Below are positions 38,171 to 47,096 of a stretch of DNA of 64,000 nt, in pieces. How positions within the stretch are numbered: position 1 is the first letter of the stretch; the number at the start of each line of letters is the position of its first letter. The notes under the pieces are model-generated. The model ran no database searches and had not been told where the DNA came from. It worked only from the letters and a program-made list of their open reading frames with translations. The position numbers and the translations under genes are program-made. The DNA is from Methanobrevibacter ruminantium M1 (lineage in GTDB: Archaea; Methanobacteriota; Methanobacteria; Methanobacteriales; Methanobacteriaceae): positions 2,169,001 through 2,233,000 of the forward strand of contig NC_013790.1 of the NCBI RefSeq assembly GCF_000024185.1, in the 5' to 3' direction.

Positions 38171-38785
38171 TTAAGCCTTATTAAGATCTTTAAAGTATAT
38201 TTTTTCATCACAGACAGTTTCTACCAAATCCATATCGTGACTTACCAATAAGAATCCCATTTTACGTTCCTTTACTATTTTTAAAACAGAATCTATGATT
38301 TGTGCCTGTGTAATTGCATCAAGCATTGTAGTCATTTCATCTGCTATTAGGAACTTTGTATTAGGATTAAGGGACCTTACCACTGAAAACCTTTGAAGTT
38401 CTCCACCAGACAATTCCTGTGGGAATCTGGTAAGCCAGGACTTCTGAATACCGAATTCAGATAATGTGGCATCATCAACATCCCAAGATTCAGATAAAAC
38501 CTGATCCATTTTCCATTTAGGATTCATAACCTTTTCTGGATGTTGATAAATTAATTGAACTGGTTTAAATCCTTTTTTATGGAATGGCTGACCATCAAAT
38601 GTTACTTCACCCTCATATTTAGTGATATAACCGGATAAGATTTTACATAATGTTGATTTTCCACTACCACTATCTCCAATCAAACCTACAATCTTCTTAT
38701 TGTCTAATTCAATACTTACATCCTTTAATAGGTAGTCTTTAGCTGATGGGTATTTAAATGAAATATTCTTTGCTATAAGTTCCAT
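38171..38785 (-). CDS. Nickel/peptide ABC importer ATPase, second subunit (NikE/OppF-like)
   Basis: Cytoplasmic ATPase of a family 5 (nickel, dipeptide, oligopeptide) ABC importer. About 204 residues, shorter than OppF because the C-terminal peptide-family domain is absent. Walker A GDSGSGKST near 36-44, Q-loop LIYQHPE, signature LSGGELQRFSVVRSL, Walker B LIADEMTTMLD, and switch SHD. The ATG at 38785 has an AGGTG site 6 nt upstream. It begins one base after the stop of the other ATPase gene, so the pair is translated in tandem. Last gene of the importer cluster. Confidence 0.88.
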   Translation of the reverse strand: MELIAKNISFKYPSAKDYLLKDVSIELDNKKIVGLIGDSGSGKSTLCKILSGYITKYEGEVTFDGQPFHKKGFKPVQLIYQHPEKVMNPKWKMDQVLSESWDVDDATLSEFGIQKSWLTRFPQELSGGELQRFSVVRSLNPNTKFLIADEMTTMLDAITQAQIIDSVLKIVKERKMGFLLVSHDMDLVETVCDEKIYFKDLNKA

Positions 38786-38786
38786 T

Positions 38787-40127
38787 TTATGCACCTTCTT
38801 CTACTGCCTCTTCAGAAGATTCCTCAACTGTTTCTTCAGAAGATTCCTCAACTGCTTCTTCAGAAGATTCCTCAACTGCTTCTTCAGAAGATTCCTCAAC
38901 TGCTTCTTCAGTGCCTTCTTCTACTGCTTCTTCTGGGACCTCAACTGCTTCTTCAGCACCTTCAACAGCTTCTTCAGCACCTTCAACAGCTTCAGCTACT
39001 TCTTCCTCAATTGCATCTTCAGTTTCACTAACAGCCTCTTCAGCACCTTCAACAGCTTCAGCGCTTTCTTCAATGTTGGATTCATCCACAAGTTCAGCAG
39101 CTTTTTCAACTACTTCATTAGCAGCATCTTCGATATTGGCTTCAGCAGTCTCCTCAATAGCACCGTCCTTAATCATATCTTCAGTGACACCATCATATTT
39201 AAAGCATCTAATCTTCTTAAGACCAATGTCCATCAATTCAGGACGCTCTTCCTTACATCTGTCAAATCTCCAGTCACATCTGTCATAGTAAGGACAGCCT
39301 TTGACTATCTCCCCATGCAATGGCTGATGTCCCTTAATGACTTCAAATCCATTTGCAGGGAGTGCCTTGTAGAGGGCCTTTGTATATGGATGCAATAAGT
39401 TTTCCCCATCTCCTGAGAAGTCTTCCTTAAGTGCAATCTCAATTACATATCCTGAATAGAATATTCCTATCCTGTCTGCAACCTCTAATGCAGCATGAAT
39501 ATCGTGTGTTATTAAAAGAACACCTATTCCATCATCTTTCATATGCTTAAAGTGATTCAATGTCTCTTCTACAGTCTTCTCATCAAGTCCAGGAGTAGGC
39601 TCATCCGCTACAACAAGGTCAGGGTCTGCAAGAAGTGCAGTTGAAACTAGAACTCTCCTTGCCATTCCTCCAGACAATTGGAAAGGATACATCTCATCCA
39701 CTTCAGGACCTAAATTATAATGTTCGAAAATTTCTCTTTGCTTTATTTTCTTTTCCTTTTTCTCCTCTTCGCTATCACAGTGCCCTATTGCAATATCTGA
39801 TATCTTCATTAAGGGATCCAAGAAGTTAACAGACTGAGGCACAAGCACTATTCCTTTACCTCTGATTTCTTCCTTATCTGCTTGAGACAATTCCTTGCCT
39901 TTAAATTTGATTTTTCCATTAAGTCTTGCATTTTCAGGCAAAATTCCAAATATTGCATGGGCAAGCAAACTTTTTCCAGAACCGCTTGAACCTAATACTG
40001 CTAAAATTTCACCTTCAGATATATCTAATGTCAAATCAGTTATAACTTTTAAATCCCTTTGATTTAATCCCTTTGTGTATTGTATAAATGAAATTGAAAC
40101 ATTTTCAACATCCAATAATTTATCCAT
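38787..40127 (-). CDS. Nickel/peptide ABC importer ATPase, first subunit (NikD/OppD-like), with acidic repeat tail
   Basis: About 446 residues. The first ~312 are a complete OppD/NikD-type ATPase: Walker A GSSGSGKSL, signature LSGGMARRVLVSTAL, Walker B VVADEPTPGLD, and the Cys-rich C-terminal peptide-family domain (CPYYDRCDWRFDRC, about 280-293) that binds an iron-sulfur cluster in some relatives. The last ~135 residues are Glu/Ala/Val/Ser repeats, first AEAVEGAEEA-type, then an 8-residue unit EEAVEESS repeated four to five times and encoded by 24-bp DNA repeats (about 38808-38906). ATG at 40127 follows an AGGTGG site. Confidence 0.88.
   Translation of the reverse strand: MDKLLDVENVSISFIQYTKGLNQRDLKVITDLTLDISEGEILAVLGSSGSGKSLLAHAIFGILPENARLNGKIKFKGKELSQADKEEIRGKGIVLVPQSVNFLDPLMKISDIAIGHCDSEEEKKEKKIKQREIFEHYNLGPEVDEMYPFQLSGGMARRVLVSTALLADPDLVVADEPTPGLDEKTVEETLNHFKHMKDDGIGVLLITHDIHAALEVADRIGIFYSGYVIEIALKEDFSGDGENLLHPYTKALYKALPANGFEVIKGHQPLHGEIVKGCPYYDRCDWRFDRCKEERPELMDIGLKKIRCFKYDGVTEDMIKDGAIEETAEANIEDAANEVVEKAAELVDESNIEESAEAVEGAEEAVSETEDAIEEEVAEAVEGAEEAVEGAEEAVEVPEEAVEEGTEEAVEESSEEAVEESSEEAVEESSEETVEESSEEAVEEGA
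38808..38906. repeat. 24-bp in-frame coding repeat in the importer ATPase tail
   Basis: TTCAGAAGATTCCTCAACTG occurs four times, 24 bp apart, with a diverged fifth unit. Each unit encodes eight residues on the minus strand. It explains the acidic repeat tail of the NikD/OppD-like ATPase. Confidence 0.9.
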
Positions 40128-40160
40128 CAAACCACCTAATCATTTTTAAATGAAAGGCTC

Positions 40161-40256
40161 CATTCATTATAAAACTAAAATAAACTAAACCAAGCCTAAT
40201 TCTGTATGAATTATGCAGAGATTGGTTTAATTCATTATAAAACTAAACTAAAACCT
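40161..40256. repeat. Direct repeat flanking an inverted repeat between the GNAT and ATPase genes
   Basis: ATTCATTATAAAACTAAA occurs at about 40162 and 40230; the second copy runs into the GNAT stop codon. Between them, AAACCAA/TTGGTTT and inner TAATTC/GAATTA arms form an imperfect hairpin (about 40186-40228). Confidence 0.65.
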
Positions 40257-40749
40257 TTATCATATGATTTGTTTCATCATAGTCATCTTCTTCTATAGTT
40301 ACAGTATAACCAAGAGAGTTCCAAAATGGCAAAGCCGCTTCCAGATATCTATGAGTGTTTAAATAAATTTCTTTATATCCTTCTTCCTTTGCAAACTCTT
40401 CTATTTTTTTAACAAGAATGCGTGCAAGTCCATTTCTTCGATACTGCTCATCTACCATCAGTCTCCAAATGCTTGCTGTATTCTCTTCATTGTATTGACC
40501 TTTAAAGAATTCATAATCCTTATCATATGCCCTAACACCTGCTGTTGCAACTATCTTATCCCCATCATATGCTGCAAAGAAGGCATTTCTTTTAGGCAAT
40601 ATGTAATAGTCTTTCAATCCATCAATATCATAATGAAATTCAGGCATTGGACCAATACCATATTCTATTTTTATTTGAGCATATAAAAACTCTTGAACAG
40701 ACTTTATTTGAGACTCATCGTTTTCTATTTCTTTGATTTTTATATCCAT
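40243..40749 (-). CDS. GNAT acetyltransferase inside the ABC importer cluster
   Basis: 168 residues of the GNAT fold. The acetyl-CoA loop is WRLMVDEQYRRNGLARILVKKIEEFA (about 94-119; R-R-N-G-L-A fits Q/RxxGxG/A). The C-terminal half YLNTHRYLEAALPFWNSLGYT is a normal GNAT end. It lies between the NikC-like permease and NikD-like ATPase genes in the same direction. A close paralog lies at 46059-46619, on the other side of the importer. The acceptor is unknown. The position suggests acetylation of something linked to the imported compound, but this is inference. Confidence 0.85.
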   Translation of the reverse strand: MDIKIKEIENDESQIKSVQEFLYAQIKIEYGIGPMPEFHYDIDGLKDYYILPKRNAFFAAYDGDKIVATAGVRAYDKDYEFFKGQYNEENTASIWRLMVDEQYRRNGLARILVKKIEEFAKEEGYKEIYLNTHRYLEAALPFWNSLGYTVTIEEDDYDETNHMIKVLV

Positions 40750-40917: not shown

Positions 40918-41779
40918 AACTTTGTGCTGTTTCAGGATTGAGGAGCTTTTCAACATTCTCTCCAATAAGATCAAATAGCAATACAACTATCAGCAAGGAT
41001 AGACCAGGGTAGAATGCCAACCACCAGTATCCAGCAGAAAGATAGTGCATTGATTCAGCTAATATAACTCCAATTGCAGGCTCATGAGGTGGCAGACCGA
41101 ATCCTAAGAAAGTGATTGCTGCCTCGTGCATGATTGCATGAGGGAACATTAGGATTACTCCTACAATTATTTGAGAGATAATCAATGGGAAAATGTGCTT
41201 TATAGCTATCCAAACCTTATTCCTTCCAAGATTTTCAGATAATGCAATGTATTCCTTGGTCTTAATCTCCTTGACTTCAGACCTTAGAACCCTTGCAAGA
41301 GGTGTCCAGTGTGTAAGACCTACGCCCATGATTACACCCCATACTCCTCCACCAAACATTATTGAAACGATAATGATTAGAAGAATGTGTGGAATGGAAC
41401 CGAAAAGGTCAATGATTCCAGCAACAGCCTCATCTGCAAACTTATTAAAGCTTGAGAACAATCCTAAGACAATTGAAATGATGGTACTGAGAACTGATGC
41501 GATGAAACCTACCATAATGCTTAATCCAAGACCGGCAATGGTTCTTTGGAACATGTCCCTTCCCATCCAATCTGTACCGAAAAGGTGTTCAAGGGAAGGC
41601 ATCTGATTAGCTGAAGCGAAATTTGTAGGGATGTCCCTTATGAAATATCCGCATACGAAAATGCTTATGATAATCAATGCTGCAAGTCCAATAATTACAA
41701 GTGTCTTTGTCCTAAGATTTGCACGGTATATAAACCATTGCTCCTTATCATTAGTTTTCTTCTTAATCATTGAACTCAT
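40916..41779 (-). CDS. Nickel/peptide ABC importer permease (NikC/DppC-like)
   Basis: 287 residues with about six membrane helices. An N-terminal cytosolic stretch ends in the OppC-type leader, and HLFGTDWMGRDMFQRTIAG (about 66-84) is the family signature. The EAA loop is ALSENLGRNKVWIAIKHIFPLI (about 183-204). It overlaps the end of the NikB-like gene by 17 bp; an internal ATG at 41770 may be the true start. Works with the NikB-like subunit as a heterodimer. Confidence 0.9.
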   Translation of the reverse strand: MSSMIKKKTNDKEQWFIYRANLRTKTLVIIGLAALIIISIFVCGYFIRDIPTNFASANQMPSLEHLFGTDWMGRDMFQRTIAGLGLSIMVGFIASVLSTIISIVLGLFSSFNKFADEAVAGIIDLFGSIPHILLIIIVSIMFGGGVWGVIMGVGLTHWTPLARVLRSEVKEIKTKEYIALSENLGRNKVWIAIKHIFPLIISQIIVGVILMFPHAIMHEAAITFLGFGLPPHEPAIGVILAESMHYLSAGYWWLAFYPGLSLLIVVLLFDLIGENVEKLLNPETAQS

Positions 41780-42752
41780 TCTCCTTAATTCTTGGATCTA
41801 TGAAGTAATAAGAAATATCTGCAAGCAAGTTACCTACAAATACAAATATTGCACTTATGACCACAATTCCTAAAAATAGTGGAACGTCGTTTTGAAGACC
41901 CGCTGCAACTGCAGTCTGTCCTATTCCAGGGTATGAGAATACCTGTTCCACCATGACAGCCCCTCCGAAGAGCTCACTGAATGATAAGAATTGAAGTGTG
42001 ATTGCCGGAAGCATAATATTTCTTAAACCATGATCCTTTATCAGTGCCCAGCCCTTTTCCCCTCTGGACTTTGCAAACAATACATAGTCAGAGGATAGGA
42101 CCTGAACCAATTCATTTCGTGTATACATTGCAATAGGAGCAAGACCTACAAGGCTTAATGTCAGCGTAGGAAGAACCAGCCTGGTTGCCCACTCAATAAA
42201 GGTTGCATCCGTACTCCTTACTCCAATAGGAACTCCGAATCCTATTGGGAACCATCCCAGATAAACAGAGAATACCATCGATATAAGCATACCCACCCAA
42301 AAGGATGGAGCGGATTGGATGGCATAACAGTAGACCTTCACTGCCTTATCAATCCAGGAACCTTTGTTTTTACCGGCTACAACTCCTAAAGCAAAACCGA
42401 TGATACCGCTTAAAATCCAGGATATTGTCATCAATGCAAGAGAAGCCATGAATTTGTCAATAATAACATCCATAACTGGTCTACGGTAGATTAAGGAAGT
42501 TCCCAGATTTCCTTGAAGCAAATCCATAAGCCAATGGAAAATCTTCTCAGGCAATGGAACATTGGTACCAAAGTATTGCTGTAAAATTGCTCTTTGAGCT
42601 TCAGTTACTGCAGCACCTTTTAAATAAGCATTAACTGGGTCAATAGGGGATAAATCTAATAATACAAAACTAAATATTGCAACTGCAATCATTAATACGA
42701 CAAATCGTACTAATTTCCAACCAAAATATTTTGCTATTTTTTGTTTATTCAT
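41763..42752 (-). CDS. Nickel/peptide ABC importer permease (NikB/DppB-like)
   Basis: 329 residues with six membrane helices. It starts with the OppB-type amphipathic segment. Signature SPIDPVNAYLKG (about 35-46) follows the first helix. EAA loop FAKSRGEKGWALIKDHGLRNIMLP (about 232-255). The last block FSYPGIGQTAVAAGLQNDVPLF is typical. A GGGGG site lies about 10 nt before the ATG. It forms the channel with the overlapping NikC-like gene. The 429-bp gap to the substrate-binding protein suggests separate or processed transcripts. Confidence 0.9.
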   Translation of the reverse strand: MNKQKIAKYFGWKLVRFVVLMIAVAIFSFVLLDLSPIDPVNAYLKGAAVTEAQRAILQQYFGTNVPLPEKIFHWLMDLLQGNLGTSLIYRRPVMDVIIDKFMASLALMTISWILSGIIGFALGVVAGKNKGSWIDKAVKVYCYAIQSAPSFWVGMLISMVFSVYLGWFPIGFGVPIGVRSTDATFIEWATRLVLPTLTLSLVGLAPIAMYTRNELVQVLSSDYVLFAKSRGEKGWALIKDHGLRNIMLPAITLQFLSFSELFGGAVMVEQVFSYPGIGQTAVAAGLQNDVPLFLGIVVISAIFVFVGNLLADISYYFIDPRIKENEFND

Positions 42753-43181: not shown

Positions 43182-44801
43182 TTATGCAGTTGAATTGGTT
43201 CTAGTCCAATCAACAACATTAATCAAGAAGTCATTTCCTAAACCGTCAGGTTGGTCACCCATATCAATATCTTCTTTTACGAAGTAGTTGTAGTTGTAGT
43301 TAGCAAGCCATACCCATGGAGCATCTCCAGCAGGTCCCCAGCCTCCGCCGTTTACAAGGGCAGATTGAGCCCATAAGGAGTCTGCTAGTTTGAAGTCATT
43401 GGAGTGCATTGCTTGTTCCATCAACATATCGGAAGCAGTATTGTTATATAAGTTAGGGTTCATATAGAAGTCATCAGCTTCCTTAGAGTGATATTGTTGA
43501 TAGATGGATTTATATGGGTCCGGTGAGGTCTGTTGCATTACAGAAGCAGAGGAATACATGTTAGCATAGATGGTATCCCAGTCAGCACCTTGGAGGTTTA
43601 CTTGAATGCCTAAGTCTTTAGCTTGTTCAGCAAATACTGTTGCTAAAGATTGTCTGTCAAGGTAATCAGGTGGGTAGTATAAGTCAAAGGATGCTTTTAC
43701 GCCATCTTTTTCAACGATTCCGTCACCGTCTGTGTCTTCCCATCCTCCTTCTTTGAGGATTTGTTTAGCTTTTGCTACATCACCATCTTTTACTTTAGCG
43801 TTAGGGTTTGCAAAGCTTCTGGTATCTACGCTGGTATATTCAGGTGAAGCGTGACCAGAGAATACTTCTTCACAGATTTTATCACGGTTGACACCTATGT
43901 TCAATGCTTCTCTGATGGACTTGTCAGCAGTTACATTGTTACCGATCTTTGCACCTGCTGGGCTGGTTTTTCCAGTATCTTCAAGATATGGCAAGGAGAT
44001 ACCTTGTGCCCTACCTGCAGACTTTTCAACAAAGTTGTATCCGTCTACAGATTCGTTAAGTGCAGAGGTTGCAACAGGAGCAATGTCAACTTGACCGGAT
44101 TTAGCTAACTCTAGCCAGGTAGCTTCTTCAGGGAATAACATGGTGATTTGAGTGAAGTAAGGTTTGTCACCATACCAGTTGTCATTTGCCTTAAAGATAG
44201 CTTGTTGACCTTTATCCCAGTGGTCCAATACATAAGGTCCGGTACCGATTGGGTGTTCGCCGTAGGTAGCGTTGTCATACTCTTCAGGTACGATACCTAC
44301 ATACCTTAAGTCATAGATGAATGTGGATCTTGGTTCTTCCAATTCAAATACGACAGTCTTGTCATCCTTAGCTGTAACTTTCTTAAGATTGGTTAAATCT
44401 AAATCAGTTTCAGTGTCTTTTGCAGTGTTGAATGTAAATGCTACGTCTTTTGCGTCAAAAGTGGAGTTATCTGAGAATTTGACGTCATCTCTAACCTTTA
44501 CAGTCCATTTTAAACCGTCAGCACTAATTGAATAGTTGGTTGCAAGGTCTGGAACTATGTCTCCATTCTTGTCTGTCTTAAAGAGACAGCTTTGTACCAA
44601 TGGGTTATAGTTCATGTGTCCGCAACCCCAACCTGTAAGCGGGTTGAAACCTGCTTCAGGTTCTGCCATATTGCTGTGTGTAGCTACTGTCAAGTGGGTC
44701 GGATCGCTATCGCTGCTTCCGCCGCCTCCAAATGCGAAAACGGCAATTCCAGCAATAACGAGAATAGCTACTGCAGCTATAATGATTGTTTTCTTATCCA
44801 T
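43182..44801 (-). CDS. Nickel/peptide ABC importer substrate-binding protein (SBP family 5)
   Basis: 539 residues. Membrane anchor at about 4-24, a Gly/Ser/Asp linker, then a family 5 binding domain: VATHSNMAEPEAGFNPLTGWG, VKVRDDVKFSDNSTFDAKDVAFTF (about 100-123), PIGTGPYVLDHWDKGQQ, and SIREALNIGVNRDKICEEVFSG (about 296-317). No lipobox Cys, so it is held by the N-terminal helix. The family binds nickel complexes, dipeptides or oligopeptides; methanogens need much nickel, but the ligand cannot be read from sequence. The promoter holds two AGTAWTACT boxes 32 bp apart. Confidence 0.88.
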   Translation of the reverse strand: MDKKTIIIAAVAILVIAGIAVFAFGGGGSSDSDPTHLTVATHSNMAEPEAGFNPLTGWGCGHMNYNPLVQSCLFKTDKNGDIVPDLATNYSISADGLKWTVKVRDDVKFSDNSTFDAKDVAFTFNTAKDTETDLDLTNLKKVTAKDDKTVVFELEEPRSTFIYDLRYVGIVPEEYDNATYGEHPIGTGPYVLDHWDKGQQAIFKANDNWYGDKPYFTQITMLFPEEATWLELAKSGQVDIAPVATSALNESVDGYNFVEKSAGRAQGISLPYLEDTGKTSPAGAKIGNNVTADKSIREALNIGVNRDKICEEVFSGHASPEYTSVDTRSFANPNAKVKDGDVAKAKQILKEGGWEDTDGDGIVEKDGVKASFDLYYPPDYLDRQSLATVFAEQAKDLGIQVNLQGADWDTIYANMYSSASVMQQTSPDPYKSIYQQYHSKEADDFYMNPNLYNNTASDMLMEQAMHSNDFKLADSLWAQSALVNGGGWGPAGDAPWVWLANYNYNYFVKEDIDMGDQPDGLGNDFLINVVDWTRTNSTA

Positions 44802-44838: not shown

Positions 44839-44881
44839 AAGTATTACTTTTTAGGGAGTAAACGATAAATTAGTAATACTT
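44839..44881. promoter_or_regulatory. Pair of AGTAWTACT operator-like boxes before the importer binding protein gene
   Basis: AAGTATTACTT at 44839-44849 is a perfect 5-bp inverted repeat around one base. AGTAATACTT at 44872-44881 is the second box. The centres are 32 bp apart, three helical turns. They lie 38-80 bp upstream of the binding protein start codon. A third box (AAGTAATACAAG, centre about 45095) sits before the divergent QueG-like gene. Confidence 0.65.
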
Positions 44882-45138
44882 ATTTCTATTATTTTAATAC
44901 TATACATAATTAAGTAAATAAGTATATAAAAATATATTTATTACTCTTCAAATAAACTTGATTTTTACAATATTGTACAAAATAATCCCAATTAAATTTA
45001 CAAAGTTAATATTTGATATAATTAAGTTAATAATTTATTCAAATAATTAAAAAAATAATTTACAGACTAACAATTATACTTTTTATCAAAAGTAATACAA
45101 GTATAAATATAAATATTATTAAATCCAAATATTCGACC

Positions 45139-45831
45139 ATGTCCTTATCAATAGAACTGGAAAAATACCTGAAAGGCAATGGCGCAATAGAAGTAGGATA
45201 TGCAGACATCACCAATTTCACTCCAAAGAAAGGATTGAACACAGGAGTAGTCTTTTTCATCACCTACCCTAAGGAAGTGATACGAAACATGGCGAATGCT
45301 CCAACATTAGAGTACCTTTATGAATTGATTGATCTAAACACCAGACTGGATGCCCTTGGAATGATCTGTGAGGAGTTTCTTATAAATAAAGGATATAAGG
45401 CATATGCACAGACAAAAAAGAGATTAGGAGGAAACTTTGGAGAGTTCAATTCATTTGAGCTTCCACATAAGACCATAGCTACAAGAGCAGGCATGGGATG
45501 GATTGGAAAGTCAGCACTCTTTACAACATTCAAGTACGGATCCGCTTTAAGATTATGCTCAGTGCTGACAGATGCCCCTTTAGAGATAGGAGAGCCAATA
45601 ATTAAGTCCAGATGCGGAAAGTGCATGATATGTAAGGAGGCATGTCCTGGAGGAGCAATAAGCGGAAGAAACTGGGATTATACTCTTAAAAGAAATGATT
45701 TTTATGATGATAAGAAGTGTGAGAAGTATGCGCTTATAGTCTCTGAGGAGAATCTGGGAAAACCTGATACAGTCTGTGGCAAATGTATTTATGCCTGCCC
45801 TCATACTCAGAAGTATGTGAAAAGAACTTGA
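45139..45831 (+). CDS. QueG-like double-cluster iron-sulfur protein
   Basis: 230 residues related to epoxyqueuosine reductase and corrinoid reductive enzymes. The block ATRAGMGWIGKSALFTTFKYGSALRL (about 114-139) is the QueG-type corrinoid-site region. Two [4Fe-4S] sites: Cys159, Cys162, Cys165, Cys169, and Cys213, Cys216, Cys220 with Cys194 or Cys169. It is shorter than QueG. Archaea make archaeosine and generally do not use queuosine, so the reaction is unknown. There is no ribosome binding site, and a TATA-like GTATAAATATAAAT about 28 nt upstream suggests a leaderless transcript. Divergent from the importer. Confidence 0.8.
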   Translation: MSLSIELEKYLKGNGAIEVGYADITNFTPKKGLNTGVVFFITYPKEVIRNMANAPTLEYLYELIDLNTRLDALGMICEEFLINKGYKAYAQTKKRLGGNFGEFNSFELPHKTIATRAGMGWIGKSALFTTFKYGSALRLCSVLTDAPLEIGEPIIKSRCGKCMICKEACPGGAISGRNWDYTLKRNDFYDDKKCEKYALIVSEENLGKPDTVCGKCIYACPHTQKYVKRT

Positions 45832-45911
45832 TTTTAAGAAAATAGTTATTTTTTTATCTATTTAAAAAATTATTATTATTTTATCTAATTTTAAAAAAAA
45901 ATAGTTATTAC

Positions 45912-45950
45912 GCACTAGTCTTAAAAATAGAATCTAAATTAGTGCTTTTT
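45912..45950. terminator. Terminator between converging genes
   Basis: GCACTA and TAGTGC form a 6-bp stem with a 22-nt loop, followed by TTTTT. It lies about 80 bp after the QueG-like gene. Confidence 0.45.
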
Positions 45951-46058
45951 GAAATTAAAAATTAAATTAAACTTGTTTTAAAAATAGCGTTTAAAGTGTT
46001 ATTTTTGAATGTTAATATTTAAATGAAATTAAGTTGTTAGAAAAACCCTATTTTTATT

Positions 46059-46619
46059 TTATAACTTAATTGCATAAGTTAAGATACCTGCTTGTGGTGA
46101 AATCTTTAATTTTTGAATGAATTTTTCCATATGGACAGTTTCAAGCTCATCACCTTCATCCAAGGTAATGATAAAGCCCATTTTCATCCAAAACTGAAGA
46201 GCCCCCTCTAATGTCCTATGAGTATGCAAATAAATATTTTTATAGTCCCTGTCTTTTGCAAAGTTTTCAGCTACGCTAAACATTTTAGAAGCCAAACCGC
46301 AACGTCTGTATCTCCTATCGACAAAAAGTCTCCAAATGCTTGATGTAGTGTCATTGGAATATATGCCTTCAAATTTTTCAAAATTCTTATCATAAGCCCT
46401 CAGACCTATTGTAGCAATAATTTCACCGCTTTCGGAATAAGCAACGAAAAATGCATTGCGTTCTGGATTTATATAATAGTCCTCCATATTCACAATGTCC
46501 TGATGCCACTCTGGGACATAATCATAGCCAAATTCAAGTTTTATCATGTGAAATAAAAAGTTTTGAACATTTTTTATTTCCTCTGGGTCGTTTCCTAACT
46601 CTTTAATATTAACATTCAT
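46059..46619 (-). CDS. GNAT acetyltransferase, paralog of the one in the importer cluster
   Basis: 186 residues. It aligns along its length with the protein of 40243-40749: both start with a KE(I/L)xND leader and share the DYYI-P-RNAFF-AY block, I-A-T-G-RAYDK and SIWRL-VD-YRR-GLA. The acetyl-CoA loop is RRYRRCGLASKMF. Its C terminus is about 20 residues longer. The two genes flank the importer binding protein and permease genes, which suggests duplication inside one functional locus. Its upstream region holds a phased AGTAWTACT array. Confidence 0.83.
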   Translation of the reverse strand: MNVNIKELGNDPEEIKNVQNFLFHMIKLEFGYDYVPEWHQDIVNMEDYYINPERNAFFVAYSESGEIIATIGLRAYDKNFEKFEGIYSNDTTSSIWRLFVDRRYRRCGLASKMFSVAENFAKDRDYKNIYLHTHRTLEGALQFWMKMGFIITLDEGDELETVHMEKFIQKLKISPQAGILTYAIKL

Positions 46620-46668
46620 ATTAACACTTCAAGGAAGTTATTATTTTTTCTAAGAAAAAAACATATTT

Positions 46669-46882
46669 AGTAATACTTTTATGCAATTTTTGATTACTAA
46701 TAATATTGAAGTTTAAAATTATATTTAAAACTTATTATTTAATCCTAGGAGAAAGGCCCAATTTAAAATTTGGCTTTAAAAGTAATACTAAATGGCTAAA
46801 AAAGACCATAAAAGTAATAAAAAATTAAATAAAGAAGAGAAAAGTATTACAAAATAAAGTAAAATGATAAAAAAAGTAATAC
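46669..46882. promoter_or_regulatory. Phased AGTAWTACT box array upstream of the second GNAT gene
   Basis: A box AGTAATACTT is at 46669-46678. A cluster follows with centres at about 46785, 46817, 46847 and 46879, i.e. 32, 30 and 32 bp apart (AGTAATACT, AAGTAATAA, AAGTATTAC, AAGTAATAC). The spacing equals the 32 bp seen in the importer promoter. The array lies 50-265 bp before the start codon at 46619. The rest of the 510-bp gap (46883-47096) holds nothing I can name. Confidence 0.6.
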
Positions 46883-47096
46883 AAAATATGATTAGATAAA
46901 ATAAAAAATTGGTAAAATAGAATTAAAAAAATAAGAATAATAAGAGAATAGAAAACAGATAAAAAAAATACTAAAAAAGATGTTAGTGTGAGATAATAAA
47001 AGAGGTTGAAATGAGTTAATGAGAAACATCTTTTTTAGAATAAAAATGAATTAAATCATTCAAATAAATAGATAAATGAATAAATAAAATTTAATA

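Follow-up and report, generated by a model that had tools for sequence, protein, structure and literature searches.

AGTAWTACT boxes, arranged in phased pairs and rows, mark a nickel regulon common to the Methanobacteriales with a probability of about 0.9. Its scope, covering nickel importers, the nickel-free backup hydrogenase and genes for F430, hydrogenase maturation and a chelator, is well supported. Methanogens are nickel-limited because hydrogenases and methyl-coenzyme M reductase require nickel.

The window is a 64,000-nucleotide stretch of DNA (C1:2169001-2233000) from the single-contig genome of Methanobrevibacter ruminantium M1 (2,937,203 bases). A pattern scan found the palindromic 9-mer AGTAWTACT repeated in three intergenic gaps of the window, and all boxes listed in the sequence-only reading were recovered in their places:

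44840..44848, nikA2 pair, box 1: AGTATTACT, exact, 39 bp upstream of the start of the importer binding-protein gene (44801, minus strand)
44872..44880, nikA2 pair, box 2: AGTAATACT, exact, 71 bp upstream of 44801 and 32 bp from box 1
45091..45099, box of the QueG-like gene: AGTAATACA, one mismatch, 48 bp ahead of the start at 45139
46669..46677, box of the second GNAT gene: AGTAATACT, exact, 50 bp ahead of the start at 46619 (minus strand)
46781..46789, row box 1, ahead of the second GNAT gene: AGTAATACT, exact
46813..46821, row box 2, ahead of the same gene: AGTAATAAA, two mismatches
46843..46851, row box 3, ahead of the same gene: AGTATTACA, one mismatch
46875..46883, row box 4, ahead of the same gene: AGTAATACA, one mismatch

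The row of four is imperfect (0, 2, 1 and 1 mismatches), only its first box being exact, and its spacings are 32, 30 and 32 bp. The three gaps contain four exact boxes (0.03 in dinucleotide shuffles), seven boxes with at most one mismatch (0.9 in shuffles) and two pairs at 30–33 bp (0.004 in shuffles); none of 2000 shuffles matched these counts. With pairs so far above shuffles, the proposed phasing at 30–32 bp holds. In the window as a whole, boxes with at most one mismatch show no excess (21 versus 20.3 expected). The signal is local clustering and phasing, and the number of single boxes is at the chance level. The proposal that phased boxes serve a cooperative regulator also stood up, the binding of such a regulator being predicted from the sequence.

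The boxes are surrounded by the following genes:

38171..38794, minus strand: NikE2-type ATPase
38787..40130, minus strand: NikD2-type ATPase whose C-terminal tail is a long, Glu-rich run of repeats (EEAVEES and like units)
40243..40749, minus strand: GNAT gene within the nik2 operon, mru_1707 by gene order (PMC5816558)
40916..41779, minus strand: NikC2-type permease
41763..42752, minus strand: NikB2-type permease
43182..44801, minus strand: NikA2-type substrate-binding protein, best solved relative the Yersinia nickel-binding protein YntA (4OFL/3RY3)
45139..45831, plus strand: short QueG-like double [4Fe-4S] protein, a conserved nikA2 neighbour with boxes in relatives
46059..46619, minus strand: second GNAT gene, whose orthologs in relatives repeatedly have phased boxes

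The nikA-, nikB-, nikC-, nikD- and nikE-type genes of the window score far above background, yet below the NCBIfam equivalog cut-offs. In relatives, the GNAT and QueG-like genes are again found next to nikA2 and with boxes, and the trio of importer, QueG-like and GNAT genes therefore forms a conserved unit.

Genome-wide, single exact boxes are not enriched (67 versus 75 for the reversed-pattern control). Adjacent boxes at most 60 bp apart number 15 versus 0.09 expected, and eight gaps fall at 31–34 bp, where the simulation maximum was one. A scan with the pair pattern gave 17 forward matches and a single match in the reversed control. Thus, the motif is as common across the genome as chance predicts when boxes are counted singly, which would have spoken against the sequence-only reading, but this is not so for phased pairs. 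The clusters are almost all intergenic. Their targets, read from the stretches around box sites, are as follows:

cluster ahead of the divergent hmdC and hmd
cluster ahead of cbiM-cbiN-cbiQ with the PDGLE-domain partner
cluster ahead of the second nikA operon (nikA1)
cluster ahead of a heavy-metal P-type ATPase with a His-rich tail
cluster ahead of the mcrB operon
cluster ahead of the fdhA-like/frhB-like/mvhD operon
clusters ahead of feoB, leuS and some adhesins

Of 120 Methanobacteriaceae genomes, 106 have phased exact pairs, and the control with the reversed pattern was almost always zero; 13 outgroup genomes at the order and class level have no pairs of this exact form. From 13 relatives, almost every pair locus was fetched, and by our own tally of neighbours 35 of these 53 loci adjoin nickel-regulon genes. 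These are nikABCDE importers, the cbiMN-type (nikMN) ECF importer, nicotianamine synthase, hypB, the F430 nickelochelatase gene cfbA, the fdh-mvhD operon, heavy-metal P-type ATPase, GNAT and QueG-like genes; hypB and cfbA are box targets in relatives. Some pairs lie ahead of adhesins and unrelated genes. A lack of conservation before orthologous importers had been named as a ground for dropping the motif; in other genera, phased boxes do accompany the orthologs of the importer, GNAT and QueG-like genes.

Promoters selected by gene rather than by motif gave the same picture. Those of hmd hold 21 exact boxes in 10.6 kb (0.24 in shuffles), with spacings of 31–32, 9 and 40–41. Those of cbiM1 from other genera and families hold 10 partner boxes at 31–33 bp (0.34 in shuffles). 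In order-level relatives with 39–50% GC the nikM/cbiM1 operator is ATTATTACC-N24-GTAATAC, with the sites 33 bp apart; therefore, AT content does not explain the element, which is old. Among exact pairs with 29–35 bp gaps at the fetched loci, a set partly selected for spacing, 55 of 60 fall at 31–33 bp. In the same partly selected set, TATA-like octamers occur in 46 of 60 pair spacers (32 in shuffles, with a maximum of 40), which fits promoter occlusion. In Methanothermobacter-like relatives (f3; stretches L299-L303) a conserved AGTATTACA lies about 26 bp ahead of hmd, within an imperfect inverted repeat.

Published RNA-seq of lauric acid-treated M. ruminantium M1 showed changes in only 147 of 2280 genes (PMC5816558). 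Genes nikA2, nikB2, nikC2, the GNAT gene between nikC2 and nikD2 (mru_1707) and nikD2 went up together, as did nikB1, mru_1613 (listed as SAM methyltransferase), cbiM1, cbiN1, hmd and the neighbouring bioB2, while mcrD went down (PMC5816558). The product of bioB2 beside hmd was identified here as HmdB. The gene order of M1 matches our coordinates, mru_1710 to mru_1706 lying in the window and mru_1617 to mru_1612 in stretch L052. The stimulus was lauric acid and not nickel; therefore, the data show only that the box-bearing nik1, nik2, cbiMN1 and hmd operons are co-regulated.

Nickel itself comes into play in Methanothermobacter marburgensis, where hmd and mtd go up, and frh goes down, once nickel becomes limiting (PMC3087415). 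The boxes of M. ruminantium sit at hmd, the gene that is induced in M. marburgensis when nickel is scarce (PMC3087415). The same review mentions NikR homologs and names neither an operator nor a direct regulator (PMC3087415), and no DNA site or direct regulator for the nickel control of hmd was found described in the literature searched. The boxes provide a concrete candidate operator and a testable regulator for this control.

The suggestion of a nickel-related function gained support, the other box targets being nickel genes. Some targets bear the names of cobalt transporters or FeoB, the co-expression came under lauric acid together with changes in many adhesins, and some boxes precede adhesins, as might be seen if the boxes belonged to a cobalt, iron or general metal or envelope-stress regulon. 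However, hmd, hypB, cfbA (nickelochelatase) and the YntA-like nickel-binding protein indicate nickel in particular, and CbiMN proteins with a PDGLE-domain partner may transport nickel, so that we consider such a regulon very improbable. Chance matches within AT-rich intergenic DNA would account for the frequency of single boxes in the genome and the window; for phased pairs this explanation is refuted by the clustering, the phasing, the reversed-pattern control and the conservation in GC-richer relatives, and its probability is negligible.

For the regulator of this nickel regulon, the sequence-only reading had named NikR as one candidate and proposed a search for nikR. One nikR gene was found in the genome (PF08753, 3.7e-31; NCBIfam PRK01002, 246.6 bits with the cut-off at 111). 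The protein belongs to the NikR family, having the ribbon-helix-helix and NikR_C domains, and in the alignment with Pyrococcus horikoshii NikR the His3Cys metal ligands H80, H91, H93 and C99 are present. From genus to genus, the N-terminal DNA-binding segment hardly differs (MRISMSLPxKLL...GYQSRSKGIRDAL). The targets, nickel uptake genes and genes of nickel enzymes or their substitutes (nikABCDE, nikMN/cbiMN, hmd, hypB, cfbA, mcr), are those expected of a NikR regulon. In stretch L059 (6003-6509 and 7685-8209) the C-terminal tail of NikR is rich in His (HSHSHSHSH), and the second gene downstream encodes a HycI-type hydrogenase maturation protease.

The operator geometry does not agree with that of NikR as known, 20–21 bp from centre to centre (PMC545781). 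NikR usually spans two helical turns, the boxes three: in nearly all targets the half-sites are 31–34 bp apart instead of the expected 20–22 bp or so. A spacing of 21 bp was seen only at the genus-specific nikR promoter, with the box-like AGTAATATT and AGTAATAAT; these sites are imperfect and kept only within Methanobrevibacter sensu stricto. Hence nikR autoregulation was rejected as a family-wide rule. Similarly, we rejected an altered NikR DNA-binding domain as the cause of motif loss in some genera: the domain is nearly invariant, and the cbiM1 promoters in most of these genera still carry boxes.

How one NikR tetramer would span 32 bp is not obvious, which counts against NikR. The same nickel regulon might instead be bound by another, undescribed archaeal DNA-binding protein, with NikR acting elsewhere or on its own gene only. 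The deviating spacing would agree with this, as would the lack of conserved nikR-promoter boxes outside the genus and the 11 of 120 genomes without detected NikR. Several of these 11 retain pairs, but the missing NikR may be due to incomplete assemblies. On the other hand, NikR occurs almost throughout the family, with a DNA-binding domain conserved to the same degree as the box, the half-site resembles the predicted NikR half-site, and a non-systematic look around the nik, cbiM and hmd clusters revealed no further regulator gene; another binder is therefore rather unlikely. NikR remains the best candidate, given the single gene, the conserved ligands and DNA-binding domain and the two box-like sites at its own promoter, and is the likely, if predicted, binder of the AGTAWTACT boxes, the 32-bp spacing being the part that departs from known NikR operators. 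The regulon behaves like a NikR regulon, but since its operator spacing is not the canonical one, we classify it as a variant and not as a plain member.

Around these observations (the boxes, their phasing and conservation, the target genes and the co-expression of several targets in M. ruminantium) a model can be drawn, in which we infer NikR as the binder, nickel as the signal and repression as the action. The boxes would then probably be operator half-sites of a nickel regulon run by a single nickel-loaded NikR, which would bind pairs of palindromic 9-mers with one ribbon-helix-helix dimer per AGTAWTACT. Paired boxes would lie three turns apart on one DNA face, and rows would reflect cooperative stacking. 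With nickel plentiful, the importers nik1, nik2 and cbiMN1/nikMN would be shut off, and so would the synthase of the chelator and the substitutes that need no nickel (hmd with hmdBC; fdh-mvhD). Part of this shut-off would come from covering of TATA boxes, often placed between the boxes. With nickel scarce, the repressed operons would be released. The structural question raised is how NikR or another protein recognizes sites three turns apart.

In Escherichia coli, the operator of nikABCDE for NikR is GTATGAT-N13/14-ATCATAC. The E. coli regulator belongs to the same protein family with the His3Cys site and has a nikABCDE-type importer as its target, but the half-site sequence and spacing differ, the Methanobacteriales half-site being itself palindromic. 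NikR regulons predicted in delta-proteobacteria likewise combine nickel transporters and nickel-free hydrogenase with paired half-sites (PMC545781). Their predicted half-sites are GTGTTAC/GTAACAC, with GTATTAC at the nickel-free hydrogenase in D. desulfuricans (PMC545781). The palindromic-type half-site GTRTTAC/GTAAYAC is close to GTAWTAC of the Methanobacteriales, whereas the half-sites are 20–21 bp apart in delta-proteobacteria and 31–34 bp apart in the Methanobacteriales. Only the latter have rows of several boxes, and their targets extend to chelator, F430, hydrogenase-maturation and methanogenesis genes.

The putative chelator synthase is encoded beside nik1, outside the window:

C1:2097288-2098130 (L052:8289-9131), minus strand: mru_1613, nicotianamine-synthase family, PF03059 above the cut-off

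The protein shares the fold family (PF03059) of thermonicotianamine synthase, with 278 bits to 3FPE and 275 bits to 3O31, both structures from M. thermautotrophicus. The M. ruminantium gene has no boxes of its own; its orthologs have phased boxes in several genera, not in all, and the promoter was rejected as a universal target. Nicotianamine synthase in Methanobrevibacter has already been noted by others, who suggested metal uptake; a connection with a regulon of nickel importers did not come up in the literature that could be searched. We tentatively consider that in the Methanobacteriales a three-turn NikR operator might run a complete nickel-economy regulon including a home-made chelator, which would be re-imported as the nickel complex. 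If so, (thermo)nicotianamine synthase, made together with the CntA/YntA-like ABC importer, would form with it the archaeal equivalent of the opine metallophore systems of bacteria. In the opine/nicotianamine-like staphylopine system (CntL, CntABCDF), an enzyme of the nicotianamine-synthase family is likewise found beside an importer of the Opp/Nik family that has a CntA-like binding protein, but in M. ruminantium no opine dehydrogenase or dedicated exporter was identified, and the link to nickel is by regulation only. The boxes themselves connect chelator, importer, cofactor and backup enzymes within one regulon of rumen and gut methanogens.

Several boxes lie elsewhere. Phased boxes precede large adhesin-like surface genes (L055 7775-7826 and 13700-13849; L238 2501-2594; L244 2501-2533); these are not explained by the nickel regulon, and many adhesins were also altered in the lauric acid RNA-seq. 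Four boxes lie in a gap of about 1.9 kb without a clear open reading frame (L050 7279-7443; C1:1479278-1479442). Finally, an identical duplicated segment (L060 6472 and 16339; C1:526471 and 536338) carries one box, with an HxlR-type regulator on one side and a MinD/CbiA-like gene on the other.
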